Assembly (NCBI RefSeq): GCF_900141805.1
Contig: NZ_FQYN01000001.1
Coordinates: 124,001 to 188,000 of the forward strand
From: Hymenobacter daecheongensis DSM 21074
GTDB taxonomy: Bacteria; Bacteroidota; Bacteroidia; Cytophagales; Hymenobacteraceae
Reading direction: 5' to 3'
Length of the DNA stretch: 64,000 nucleotides
Shown here: one piece after another, positions 1,384-47,487 of the stretch
Position numbering within the stretch: position 1 is the first letter of the stretch
How the letters are laid out: each line of letters opens with the position of its first letter
Program-made: the position numbers and the translations under genes
Notes under the pieces: generated by a model
What the model was told of the DNA's origin: nothing
Database searches by the model: none
Seen by the model: the letters and a program-made list of their open reading frames with translations, nothing else

Positions 1384-1500
1384 TGGAATTCTGACTGTTG
1401 AATTCTAAATTCTGAATTAGCAGGCTTCACCATAAGTATGGCAATGGCCAGGCTGGTCAGAAGGTTGATTCTCAATTCAGAATTCATAATTCACAATTGC
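1384..1500. repeat. Inverted simple-word repeat (7-bp word AATTCTG)
   Basis: Directly after the stop of the CBS gene, read on the minus strand, come degenerate tandem copies of a 7-bp word (AATTGTG, AATTATG, AATTCTG, AATTGAG). Near the start of the next gene the same kind of word array (AATTCTG, AATTCTA, AATTCTG) occurs on the opposite strand. The two arrays could pair as an imperfect hairpin in the intergenic transcript. Confidence 0.75.
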
Positions 1501-1502
1501 TC

Positions 1503-2180
1503 CTAGAGGCTTAGGTATTTGAGCAGGGCATCGAAACGGTCCTGCTCGCCTTCGCTGACCTCACCGGCGCCGCTGAACTGGGCCGTGATGATGTAGCCGA
1601 ACCGCTCGAGCGTGGCCGTGATGCGGGCCAGATCGGCGGTATTGAGCTTCAGGGTGAGGCGGATCTTGTAGGGGTCGTGCTCGTCCTGCGCGACGTGGGC
1701 GCTGAGAATCTTGGCGTTGTTTTCCTCAACGTAGCGGCTGATCTGGGTGAGGGAATAGTCGCGCTCGGCCATCGACATGACGATGATGCCGCCCTGACCG
1801 GCGGCAATGGGCATCTGGCCAAACGCGGCCAGCGTATCGCCCACCGTGACTACGCCCAGGTATTCGCGCCGGTCGTCGAGCACGGGCACGAGCTGGAGCT
1901 TGTTCTGAATGGCCAGCTCCATGATGCTGTAGAAGTGCTGATCGTGCTGCACATGCACATTGGCAAAGCCGAAAGGAACGCTGGCCAGGGGCTGGTCGGA
2001 GTTTTCGTGGTCGAGCAGGTCGGCTTCGGTGATGAGGCCGCGGTATTGCCGGTTTTCGAGCACGGGAAGCTGGCCCACATGAAACTCTTCCAGCCACTTG
2101 GCAGCCTTAGAGGCTGAGTCGGAGACTTTGAGCGGCGGAATCATCTGGTTGAGCAAGTCTTCGGCAATCATCGAATGCAT
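1503..2180 (-). CDS. CBS-domain protein with C-terminal ACT-like domain
   Basis: A 225-residue soluble protein. Residues about 3-55 and 70-122 form a pair of CBS motifs, each with a hydrophobic strand followed by a G-[LV]-[IV]-T turn (RGLITEADLL; LGVVTVGDTL). The rest (about 130-205) reads as an ACT-like fold (GIIVMSMAERDYSLTQISRYV). This CBS-CBS-ACT order is that of AcuB-like proteins, which are thought to sense adenine nucleotides; no ligand or partner can be read here. I take ATG 2180; a TTG at 2186 and an ATG at 2171 are alternatives. It lies 97 bp downstream of the alpha/beta hydrolase gene on the same strand, and its 3' end is followed at once by a simple-word repeat. Confidence 0.85.
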   Translation of the reverse strand: MHSMIAEDLLNQMIPPLKVSDSASKAAKWLEEFHVGQLPVLENRQYRGLITEADLLDHENSDQPLASVPFGFANVHVQHDQHFYSIMELAIQNKLQLVPVLDDRREYLGVVTVGDTLAAFGQMPIAAGQGGIIVMSMAERDYSLTQISRYVEENNAKILSAHVAQDEHDPYKIRLTLKLNTADLARITATLERFGYIITAQFSGAGEVSEGEQDRFDALLKYLSL

Positions 2181-2277
2181 CGGCAAGAAAAAGCTGAAAG
2201 GCGTAAATAAACTGCTTACAAACGATGAATAAGCGAACGGGCAGCTGCTTTGTTCAGTAGCGCCTAACCCGCTGACT

Positions 2278-3063
2278 TCAGGCCCCTACCGCCACCGGGT
2301 GCCCGGCCGTGCGGCGCAGAAACTGGCGCAGATAGGCATTAAACTCCTGAGGGCGCTCCATCATGGGAGCGTGGCCGCAATGGTCGAGGAAGCGCAGCTC
2401 GGAGCTGCTGATGAGGCGGTGAAACTCGTGGGCGACGGGCGGCGGCGTGATGGTATCGTTCAGACCCCAGACCAGCAGCGTGGGCACCTTGATACGGGTA
2501 AGATCCTTGCCAAGGTTGTGGCGCTGGGCCGAGCGGGCAATGCTAATGATGCGCAGGCACTTAGCATTGGAGTTGGTCACGTTGAAAACTTCATCAACCA
2601 GCTCCTTGGTCGCCACCTGGGGGTCGTAGAAGGTATAGGCCACGCGCTCCTGCACGAAGGCATAGTTGCCGCGCTTGGGGAAGGAGCCGCCCATCGAGTC
2701 TTCAAAAAGGCCGCTGCTGCCGGTGAGCACCAGCCGCCGCACCCGGTCGGGGTGGCGCAGCGTATAGACCAGCGCCACATGGCCGCCGAGCGAGTTGCCG
2801 AGCACCGTAGTGGGCTCGGTGAGGTGAATGGCAGCCAGAAAATCCTCCACGTAACTCATCAGGCCCGGTACGCCGGCCTTGCTCAGCGGCATCTCATAGA
2901 TGGGCAGCAGCGGAATGATAACGCGGTGGTCGGTGCTGAATTCGCGCACCACATCTTCCCAGTTGCTGAGCGCCCCAAACAGGCCATGCAGCAGCAGCAG
3001 CACCTCGCCGGTGCCTTCATCGACGTAGTTGAATCCGTTTCGTTCCTTGATCTGCAGTTCCAT
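2278..3063 (-). CDS. Alpha/beta hydrolase
   Basis: A 261-residue alpha/beta hydrolase fold protein without signal peptide. The HGLFG oxyanion motif (residues 26-30), the nucleophile elbow GNSLGG (Ser91), a late Asp in LVWGLND and the His in DHCGHAP make a full catalytic triad. The family includes esterases, lipases and C-C hydrolases, and the substrate cannot be told from sequence. Only 18 bp separate it from the upstream amidotransferase gene, so the two are probably cotranscribed. Confidence 0.88.
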   Translation of the reverse strand: MELQIKERNGFNYVDEGTGEVLLLLHGLFGALSNWEDVVREFSTDHRVIIPLLPIYEMPLSKAGVPGLMSYVEDFLAAIHLTEPTTVLGNSLGGHVALVYTLRHPDRVRRLVLTGSSGLFEDSMGGSFPKRGNYAFVQERVAYTFYDPQVATKELVDEVFNVTNSNAKCLRIISIARSAQRHNLGKDLTRIKVPTLLVWGLNDTITPPPVAHEFHRLISSSELRFLDHCGHAPMMERPQEFNAYLRQFLRRTAGHPVAVGA

Positions 3064-3081
3064 CTTCTCGGGGCGGGCGGC

Positions 3082-46073: not shown

Positions 46074-46077
46074 TTTA

Positions 46078-46188
46078 TTGAACTGTAAGCTTTTCTTAGC
46101 TGCAACTGTAAGCTTCAAGCCGCAAGCTTTTCGTTATGACTCACTAAAGCTTATAAAAGCTTGCGGCTTGAAGCTTACAGCTTGCAGC
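46078..46188. repeat. Inverted 7-bp word repeat (AAGCTTC/AAGCTGC)
   Basis: Downstream of the adaptor stop, on the minus strand, words read GCTGCAA, GCTGTAA, GCTTCAA, GCCGCAA, GC. Across a 25-bp centre the plus strand has the same words (CTGTAAG, CTTCAAG, CCGCAAG). Perfect pairing over roughly 25-30 bp. Confidence 0.85.
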
Positions 46189-47355
46189 TCAAAGACTAAC
46201 CACCTGCCCCTCGTTCAGATTCTGATAGCCGGCCGAAATCACTTGGTCGTCGGCTTTCAGGCCCTGGGTGATTTCCACGCGGCCGTTGTAGGTGTTGCCG
46301 GTTTGGATGACGCGCTTGGCGGCTACTTTCTGGCCGCCCTTCTGCTCCACCACCAGCACGTAGGAGTTCTGCTCGTCCTTCTGCACCAGGTCCACGGGCA
46401 GCACAGTGGCATTCTGGCGGTCGTAGTTGAGGATGCGCACGGTGGCCACCATGTTGGGGCTGAGCTGCACGGCTTTGCTGCCGCTCAGACGCAGCTCGGC
46501 GGTGAAGGTGCGGCTGGCCTGGTTGATGGTGCGGCTCACGGTGCGCACCGTGGCCGGCATTTCCTGGTCGCTCAGGTCCGGAATGGTTACCAGGGCCTGG
46601 TCGCCGGCCTTGATGCGGGCGGCGTAGGCTTCAGAGATGTCGGCCAGGATTTTGCCGCCCGAGCCGCCGGTAAGGCGCACCACCGGCGAGCCAGGAGCCG
46701 CCACCTCGCCCTGCTTCGGCAGCACCTCATCCACCACCCCGCTGAAGGGAGCCACCACGCTGTATAGCTCACGCTGGCGGTTCAGGGTGGAGAGGTTGCG
46801 GCGCAGCGCGTCGTAGTTGTTTTTGGCCTGCAGGTACTGAATCTCGGTGCCGATCTGCTGTTTCCAAAGGCGCTCCTGCTTCTCGTATACCACGCGGGTC
46901 AGGTCGAGGCGGGTGCGCAGCTCGGCAATGCTGGCATCTAGGATGCTGGCATCGATGGTAGCCAGCACCTGGCCCTTGCGTACCCGGTCGCCGCGCTGCA
47001 CCCGAATGCTGGTGAGCGTGCCGGCCGAGCGGGCCGACACCGTGGCGCTCTGGTCGAAATCGACGCGGCCCTGCACTTCGAGGTAGCTCCTGAAGCTCTC
47101 GGGCGCTACTTTAATAACTGACACGGCTACGGCTTTGGCCGCGGCGGCAGCGGCCGCCGCCTCGGCGGTAGCCGGACCGGCTTTGGCCTCCAGCTCGGCA
47201 ATTTTGGCCTGGTTGGCGGCCTGTTCGGCCTTTAGTTCGGCCAGCTCGGCCTTGGGGTCTTTTTCCGAGCCGCAAGCGGCCAGCTGCAAGCTGCAGGCGG
47301 CCAGTAAGCCGAAAGCCAGCGTGCGGGAAGAGAGTCGGGAAGGAGCGTATTTCAT
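46189..47355 (-). CDS. RND efflux adaptor (membrane fusion) lipoprotein
   Basis: A 388-residue adaptor protein. A signal peptide ends in the lipobox LQLAAC (Cys28), followed by a coiled coil with an unusual Ala-rich run (KAELAELKAEQAANQAKI), then the lipoyl-like domain (VSARSAGTLTSIRVQRGDRV), hairpin, and beta-barrel regions ending YQNLNEGQVVSL. It links the RND permease to TolC in the periplasm. The coiled coil at about 32-60 precedes the lipoyl domain rather than being inside it, so it may be a lipoprotein linker. Confidence 0.93.
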   Translation of the reverse strand: MKYAPSRLSSRTLAFGLLAACSLQLAACGSEKDPKAELAELKAEQAANQAKIAELEAKAGPATAEAAAAAAAAKAVAVSVIKVAPESFRSYLEVQGRVDFDQSATVSARSAGTLTSIRVQRGDRVRKGQVLATIDASILDASIAELRTRLDLTRVVYEKQERLWKQQIGTEIQYLQAKNNYDALRRNLSTLNRQRELYSVVAPFSGVVDEVLPKQGEVAAPGSPVVRLTGGSGGKILADISEAYAARIKAGDQALVTIPDLSDQEMPATVRTVSRTINQASRTFTAELRLSGSKAVQLSPNMVATVRILNYDRQNATVLPVDLVQKDEQNSYVLVVEQKGGQKVAAKRVIQTGNTYNGRVEITQGLKADDQVISAGYQNLNEGQVVSL

Positions 47356-47365
47356 TGGGAGAAGC

Positions 47366-47487
47366 TTGGAGTTAGGAGGCAGGAGCTAGGAGCTAGGAGC
47401 TAGAAGCTGGGAGTTAGGAGGCAGGAGGTAAGGCCCGATGCTTGAATGAACAGCACTTCTATCTCCTAGCTTCCAGCTCCTAGCTCC
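47366..47487. repeat. Inverted 7-bp word repeat (GGAGCTA)
   Basis: Immediately downstream of the TolC stop, on the minus strand, the words are GGAGCTA, GGAGCTG, GAAGCTA, GGAGA. In front of the adaptor gene the plus strand carries GGAGCTA twice plus GGAGTTA, GGAGGCA variants. Period 7. Confidence 0.85.

Follow-up and report, generated by a model that had tools for sequence, protein, structure and literature searches.

Inverted arrays of 7- to 9-bp words frame gene ends in Hymenobacter daecheongensis and might be kept alike by fold-back copying of one arm from the other

A 64,000-nucleotide stretch of the Hymenobacter daecheongensis DSM 21074 genome (contig C8, NZ_FQYN01000001.1, positions 124001-188000), referred to as the window in this study, carries degenerate tandem words of 7, 8 or 9 bp next to seven gene ends. 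These arrays had been reported in an earlier reading made from the sequence only, and they are present at all seven ends. An inverted partner array was confirmed at six of them; at the seventh (28749), the inverted pair belongs to another dispersed repeat and the word array is one-sided. We tentatively propose that such arrays form palindromic frames around gaps between genes, and that fold-back template switching, in which one arm serves as the template for the other, may keep the two arms of a frame alike. Three observations accompany this proposal: the words belong to a vocabulary common to the genome; their arms are often anchored at stop codons; and at orthologous gaps of related species the words can differ, and on average the two arms of one locus match each other better than the arms of other species.

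The genome (4.39 Mb; 61% G+C in the stretches examined) was sampled over 1.64 Mb (37%), consisting of the first 440 kb of contig C8 and the first 400 kb each of C10, C11 and C17, and counts for the own genome refer to this sample unless another extent is given. Genes were called by a purpose-written codon-model script and not by a standard gene finder; in the window, this script missed the open reading frame (ORF) at 45720-46118, and its gene from 56601 spans opposite-strand ORFs and may be wrong. Gaps held 39 arrays of period 7 and 51 of period 8 with scores of at least 11, as compared to 0.1 and 0.2 in dinucleotide shuffles, and coding DNA scaled to equal length held 0.6 and 0.5. For period 11 the counts were 9 vs 0.2. 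Period 9 exceeded the shuffles at a looser threshold (12 vs 1.8) and was not enriched at the stricter one in the 1.64 Mb (1 vs 0). The word arrays are therefore real and far above chance expectation, and the enrichment over shuffled gaps holds for periods 7 and 8 but not for period 9 at the stricter threshold. Inverted repeats scoring at least 14 were found in 212 of the 574 gaps of the first 840 kb (0.4 in shuffles), many of them being short-loop terminator-like hairpins or other dispersed repeats.

According to the sequence-only reading, each locus had its own word and the arrays were not one dispersed repeat family. We rejected locus-specific words because all seven recur in the sample. Two tandem units were present in 25 distinct gaps for AATTCTG, 7 for GTGAAGTT, 4 for AATGTGCTG, 26 for GTGAGATA, 4 for AAGCTTC, 9 for GGAGCTA and 2 for GGCTAGAA, with 0-2 gaps for the reversed-word controls. 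The seven words thus constitute a common genome vocabulary. Matches to the words lie mostly in gaps but also in called coding DNA (gap/coding counts of 48/16 for AATTCTG, 13/2 for GTGAAGTT, 5/12 for AATGTGCTG, 85/2 for GTGAGATA, 15/8 for AAGCTTC, 38/1 for GGAGCTA and 2/0 for GGCTAGAA). The most abundant word, GTGAGATA (GTGA8), was found as two tandem copies with at most two mismatches at 129 + 128 places across the genome, with none for the control. Together with an inner core, its arms form a dispersed palindromic unit about 112 bp long, whose ends are nearly constant (about query positions 862-973). This unit was recovered at 13 places in the own genome (every one scored in the single-locus search) and, among the matches listed, in 13 of 24 congeners. 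As a discrete unit with constant ends and many copies, GTGA8, the one word examined in this way, resembles a miniature inverted-repeat transposable element (MITE).

Long-loop inverted pairs numbered 278 in the own-genome sample, and 69 of these were classed as word arms. The 5' arm of these pairs carries the word strand, and no reversed-only pair was seen in the word families. At 41/78 gene ends, the distance from the outer edge of a word arm to the stop codon is at most 6 bp; the edge overlaps the coding sequence at 46/78, and the stop codon is wholly within a paired arm at 36/78. For the other dispersed hairpins, 28/150 edges are within 6 bp of a stop and 6/150 overlap coding sequence (distances compared, p=1.6e-9); unclassified pairs gave 24/101 and 16/101. 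Toward start codons, word-arm edges are within 6 bp in 20/60. The arms of one locus also resemble each other: over the 24 nt outside the core, GTGA8 arms of the same locus were identical at 0.883 of positions vs 0.769 across loci (0/5000 permutations; 20 core pairs, of which two share a locus and overlap). In gaps carrying both word arms and another dispersed hairpin, both-sided arms lay outside the hairpin in 5 cases, inside in none and side by side in 3, and single arms lay outside in 12 and within in 4, numbers too small for a conclusion.

As a separate observation, four abundant dispersed hairpins in own-genome gaps of C8, C11 and C17 (GTCATCCTGAGC..AGGACC, GTCATGCTGAGC..AGCATC, GTCATTGCGAG..GCAATC and GTCATTCCGAG..GGAATC) seem to follow a single scheme, with a covarying inner stem of 3-4 nt.

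Anchoring at stops might reflect selection at the RNA level, whereby a hairpin at the 3' end of the transcript ends transcription or protects the mRNA, and compensatory mutations keep the arms complementary. This explanation, which we consider improbable, is in line with strong predicted RNA folds at four word loci (z = -12.1, -5.3, -4.5 and -8.9; five window segments fold strongly, with z from -3.9 to -12.1, the value of -3.9 being that of the non-word hairpin at 28640-28751). It also agrees with the distribution of inverted repeats scoring at least 14, which are present in 140/179 convergent, 239/688 codirectional and 34/206 divergent gaps, terminators being counted too. However, gaps with an array of period 7-9 are no commoner among convergent (11/179) than among codirectional gaps (57/688; divergent, 6/206), and the arms extend into codons. 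Some arrays lie inside a same-strand run of OEP, HlyD-like and AcrB-like genes (47355-47488 and 45611-46189), so the arrays are not confined to transcript ends. RNA-level selection also predicts tolerance of G.U pairs on the transcribed strand, yet the arm mismatches showed no G.U strand bias (61 vs 53, p=0.51; a test of low power). In many cases transcription is ended by a separate terminator-type hairpin. The word arms themselves do not have the form of intrinsic terminators (a short G+C-rich stem followed by a T run), having, as counted here, loops of more than 10 nt and stems that are A/T-rich or mixed.

Insulation by stop codons was another suggestion of the sequence-only reading. If a word contains a stop and its length cannot be divided by three, its repetition rotates the reading frame, so that a ribosome arriving from either side would meet a stop in every frame. 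The best array had a period that is a multiple of 3 in only 3/92 gaps vs 100/121 arrays of coding DNA, and all three frames were closed within 30 nt inward in 75/104 arms (outward, 4/104; other dispersed hairpins, 0/192; unclassified pairs, 10/88). A unit-permuted control gave 48.3, and 2/2000 permutations reached the observed level; the inclusion of whole stop codons in paired arms fits as well. Nevertheless, the signal is carried by GTGA8 (56/58) and GTGCTG (7/12) arms: AATT7 equals its control (11/18 vs 11.1), and GGTCTT8 (0/8), GGAG7 (1/6) and AAGC7 (0/2) show little or none. As the independent units are word families and not arms, their number is small. Insulation fits those two families only and was rejected as a general rule; as the overall explanation of the arrays it is very improbable.

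Three convergent gaps were compared with their orthologs in other species: the gap behind the SDR gene (SDR gap, 39291-39434), the CarbopepD-OmpA gap (17886-18076) and a third gap at C10:47070-47208. At the SDR gap, arms reached within 15 bp of both stops in 13 of 33 adjacent gene pairs; 11 of these carry GTGA-type words (by eye) that differ among species, and they served as the set for arm matching. Among the remaining species, some have hairpins of other families, some a terminator-type hairpin, and some nothing. At the CarbopepD-OmpA gap, 9/20 adjacent pairs are anchored at both stops (G082 by a weak 14-bp pair only) with words of the GTGCTG, GCTGATT, GGATT or GCAGATG type; one further species (G063) carries arms of which one edge is 17 bp away, and 10 have no long-loop arms. 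Word arms of the GGGCTTAG, GCTGATT or GGATT type were present at the third gap in 6/25 species; four of these six have arms that come within 15 bp of both stops. A left-only word-like array was seen by eye in two more, G076 and G009. For a fourth gap (C11:371462-371571), the matches below the own locus were partial flank matches and dispersed GTGA8 copies, and the comparison was confined to the other three gaps.

At each of the three gaps, the left arm on average matched the right arm of its own species better than the arms of others. For the 11 species of the SDR gap, the left arm had a mean score of 25.6 against its own right arm, 14.8 against the right arms and 15.8 against the left arms of other species (0/20000 permutations). 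The corresponding values were 33.9, 9.5 and 13.6 for the 9 species of the CarbopepD-OmpA gap (0/20000), and 30.5, 10.5 and 13.6 for the 6 species of the third gap, where 1 of 720 permutations, the true pairing itself, reached this level. The own right arm was the best match in 8/11, 6/9 and 6/6 species, respectively. A terminator-type hairpin stands amid the arms in all armed species of the CarbopepD-OmpA gap (9/9) and the third gap (6/6), and armless species likewise show a terminator-like hairpin there. A separate hairpin is thus present in these 15/15 armed species, whereas a crude test found one in only 5/69 own-genome word-arm pairs; the idea of slippage-built terminators as such finds no support. 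In three species (by eye), the arm word at the third gap encodes the C-terminal end of the right-hand protein (ITD* in G098 and G081, ISAD* in G041), and the noncoding left arm mirrors it. At the CarbopepD-OmpA gap, the comparison of two species (G091 and G098) gave 2 columns altered in both arms, 0 that were arm-specific and common to the species, and 4 others. The notion of one rule applied with different words is thus upheld as to the architecture, i.e., the 5' position of the word strand, the stop anchoring and the differing words at orthologous gaps, and given up as to the specificity for loci.

The terminator-type hairpins of the second and third gaps share stem words (such as GAGGCTTGCC) in some of the species G091, G098, G007 and G087, as if terminators, too, were alike within one genome.

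A scheme that might account for these features is the following: during replication, fold-back template switching would copy one arm from the other, keeping both alike; slippage would add or remove words inside one arm; where only one flank of a gap has an arm, a mirror copy would be laid down on the opposite flank via the middle hairpin, which is of the terminator type at two of the three gaps; mirroring would halt where the coding sequence tolerates no further overwriting; and the vocabulary would spread among loci by copying, the copied unit being, for GTGA8, the dispersed palindrome of about 112 bp. The frame so maintained would consist of two inverted arms of tandem 7- to 9-bp words, often reaching or crossing the neighboring stop codons. 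Repeated arm copying would leave concerted arms, a persisting central hairpin, growth up to or slightly past the stops, and arms on one side only in some cases. For E. coli, the passages of PMC7202029 describe template switching by which quasipalindromes become perfect, and the likeness is that a hairpin makes imperfect arms more alike by copying. The quasipalindromes treated there are known from mutational hotspots and reporters; in Hymenobacter, arms of about 30-50 bp at many loci would be concerned, as judged from sequence comparison. We also consider a bolder form of the proposal, which is rather doubtful: a self-renewing palindrome, in which a word array landing by a terminator is mirrored by fold-back as far as both stops and into the final codons; the 3' context of a gene pair, including the stop and a few C-terminal residues, would then be repeatedly rewritten from the genome-wide vocabulary, and the middle hairpin would stay.

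Several results weigh against fold-back copying. The copying itself was not seen among the compared species, none of which are close enough to each other. The own arm beats the closest same-side foreign arm in just 6/11 (SDR gap) and 4/9 species (CarbopepD-OmpA gap), which plain descent predicts likewise. The likeness of the two arms at a locus exceeds what independent descent would give, but the excess is weaker within one word type: among the five GTGCTG-type species alone, the own right arm was best in 2/5, and 149/20000 permutations reached the observed sum. Part of the contrast in the 9- and 6-species tests comes merely from different word families. The SDR gap shows the middle hairpin in 3/12 species. 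In the own genome, a terminator-type hairpin lies within 5 of the 69 word-arm pairs by a crude criterion (52 loops are at least 24 nt long), and arms enclosing a terminator were rejected as a general rule for this reason. Finally, the G.U test is weak because terminator-like hairpins are also without bias (27 vs 21), and GTGA8 has the look of a dispersed element whose ends are fixed, so that insertion explains its matched arms without copying.

This last point leads to the strongest rival, namely that each arm pair is a non-autonomous element resembling repetitive extragenic palindromes (REPs) or MITEs that inserts whole, the differing words being different families. Reinsertion of palindromes would yield the same likeness of arms within a locus. 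Although unlikely as a general explanation in our view, whole-palindrome insertion probably accounts for the spread of GTGA8, with its common inner core, constant ends, 13 own places and presence in 13/24 congeners among the matches listed. Many gaps are filled by other dispersed hairpin families, and stop codons inside the outer words are the expected trace of insertion into gene ends. On the other hand, different word families flank a terminator-type hairpin in the same place at the second and third gaps, which one insertion cannot bring about, and inspection by eye shows no obvious relationship among the loops of the 7-bp families. The genome has one Y1 transposase, similar to the REP-associated tyrosine transposases (RAYTs), and a GTGA-type word pair is located in the 961-bp gap downstream of it, but its nearest flanks are other repeats (AGCCCC...CGGTAGA). 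This transposase is L114 (C11:314779-316207); the repeats closest to it are REP-like, and the GTGA-type pair lies farther downstream.

If fold-back copying is true, many gene ends owe their form to template switching. This would account for the anchoring of words at stop codons, and such loci are natural marked palindromes in which arm-to-arm copying can be measured. Co-varying arms of intergenic hairpins then need not imply selection on RNA structure. What looked like a curiosity of heptamer repeats becomes a testable process, in which inverted arms at orthologous gaps of bacteria evolve in concert around a middle hairpin and are bounded by coding sequence.

Long-loop arms of all families were present in 273/1073 gaps of the own genome, 16/138 of G042, 2/74 of G050, 0/61 of G031 and, in a different family, 6/139 of G139, where 5 lie within one 20-kb stretch. 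None were found in 79 gaps of E. coli K-12 (150 kb), and seven 20-kb samples of other genera with genes called gave 1/10 gaps in one and none in six. One exact GTGA8 pattern was present in 2/59 genomes of an order sample, both of the own genus, and absent from two further genomes of this genus. Among the matches listed, a longer GTGA pattern occurs in several Hymenobacter genomes, sometimes as inverted pairs about 90 bp apart (e.g., in H. citatus), and the pattern itself also in other Bacteroidota and a few other records.

Tandem heptamers in intergenic DNA are a trait that the Hymenobacter arrays share with the short tandemly repeated repetitive (STRR) sequences of cyanobacteria, for which we know of no inverted, stop-anchored pairing. 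The nearest precedent is provided by the GGGAATC heptamer arrays of Xanthomonas, treated together with the GGGGA(C/T)T arrays of Nostoc in the passages of Rehm et al. 2015 (PMC4692102), where two GGGAATC arrays in inverted orientation are counted in 70 (Xcc) and 75 (Xac) cases. The likeness to what these passages describe comprises degenerate tandem heptamers in gaps, inverted pairs near stops, and an equal strand rule. In Hymenobacter, period-7 arrays are likewise concentrated in gaps (39 vs 0.1), with period 8 equally common (51), and the inverted pairs are near stops (41/78 edges within 6 bp and no reversed-only pair). However, the same passages give one G-rich word per genome, read as quadruplex-forming, whereas the Hymenobacter arms use several words of 7-9 bp, are matched locus by locus, and belong, at orthologous gaps, to different families around a terminator-type hairpin. 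A G-rich GGGANTN quadruplex unit was not found: GGG is in none of the seven words, and the other printed arrays differ too, GGGGTCTT being closest.

The TAACTGA repeats of Beggiatoaceae, Cyanobacteria and some Bacteroidetes, as given in the passages of MacGregor 2015 (PMC4679880), are similar in being intergenic heptamers with forward-strand stops in every frame that limit the overlap of gene ends. They differ, according to these passages, in being direct repeats that, in the main genome, mostly precede start codons at close distance, with one inverted case. The REP elements with RAYT transposases are dispersed intergenic palindromes in many copies, described in the passages of PMC3733652 as palindromes of 20-40 bp with a tag at one end; the Hymenobacter word arms are longer and tandem. 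The repeats nearest to the single Y1 transposase are of the AGCCCC...CGGTAGA kind, with the GTGA-type pair in the same downstream gap. The passages of PMC4692102 and PMC4679880 mention no multi-word vocabulary, no arms matched locus by locus and no replacement of one family by another at orthologous gaps, and among the best title and abstract matches in open-licence PubMed Central (PMC) there were no such word arms in Hymenobacter and no matched arm turnover at orthologous gaps.

Table 1. Word arms, hairpins and one-sided array at the seven gene ends (window positions)
Feature	Position	Strand	Remark
5' word arm, AATTCTG type, period 7	1387..1418	+	gap left of CBS-domain gene 1503-2186(-)
Inverted arm of AATTCTG-type words	1468..1498	-	4 bp off stop at 1503
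5' word arm, GTGAAGTT (GTGA8-type word)	4287..4318	+	
Inverted GTGAAGTT arm	4366..4395	-	ends 1 bp from stop of YqeY-like gene 4397-4975(-)
5' word arm, AATGTGCTG type	17887..17919	+	begins 1 bp past stop of 16983-17885(+)
Terminator-type hairpin AAAAGAGGCTGC...GCAGCCTCTTTT	17963..18000	.	amid two AATGTGCTG arms; strand unassigned
Inverted AATGTGCTG arm	18042..18074	-	2 bp off stop of OmpA-family gene 18077-18709(-)
Arm of other dispersed hairpin (TCCCCTCC...)	28617..28639	+	no word arm
Inverted arm of TCCCCTCC dispersed hairpin	28717..28739	-	
One-sided word array GGCTAGAA, period 8	28741..28763	-	across stop of RecX-like gene 28749-29315(-)
5' GTGA8 arm and inner core	39294..39354	+	after stop of SDR gene 38499-39290(+)
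Inverted GTGA8 arm	39387..39439	-	overlaps stop of 39435-39794(-)
AAGCTTC-type arm	45618..45655	+	right of AcrB-like gene 42168-45611(-)
Second AAGCTTC-type arm	46106..46131	+	overlaps 5' end of small ORF 45720-46118(-)
Inverted AAGCTTC-type arm	46155..46193	-	overlaps stop of HlyD-like gene 46189-47355(-)
GGAGCTA arm, period 7	47374..47428	+	measured pairing part 47388-47420
Inverted GGAGCTA arm	47456..47488	-	touches stop of OEP-family gene 47488-49173(-)

The coordinates of the arms are collected in Table 1. For the first two gene ends, the measured pairs are 1387-1417/1468-1498 and 4287-4316/4366-4395. At the SDR gap, the measured inverted arms of the GTGA8 pair are 39303-39354 and 39387-39438, and the second gene of this gap has a sub-threshold eCIS_core match only. 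The inverted AAGCTTC-type arm can pair either way, as 45618-45655/46156-46193 or as 46106-46131/46155-46180. The small ORF at 45720-46118(-), located between the HlyD-like and AcrB-like genes, encodes a four-helix-bundle protein (TIGR02436, 113.9 bits); framed by three AAGCTTC-type arrays with two possible pairings, it looks like cargo inserted with or into the arms. A search of the window with Rfam at gathering thresholds gave a tRNA as the sole match. Elsewhere in the window, the region 61075-62275 contains long tandem repeats of the coding type, of 234 and 471 bp.

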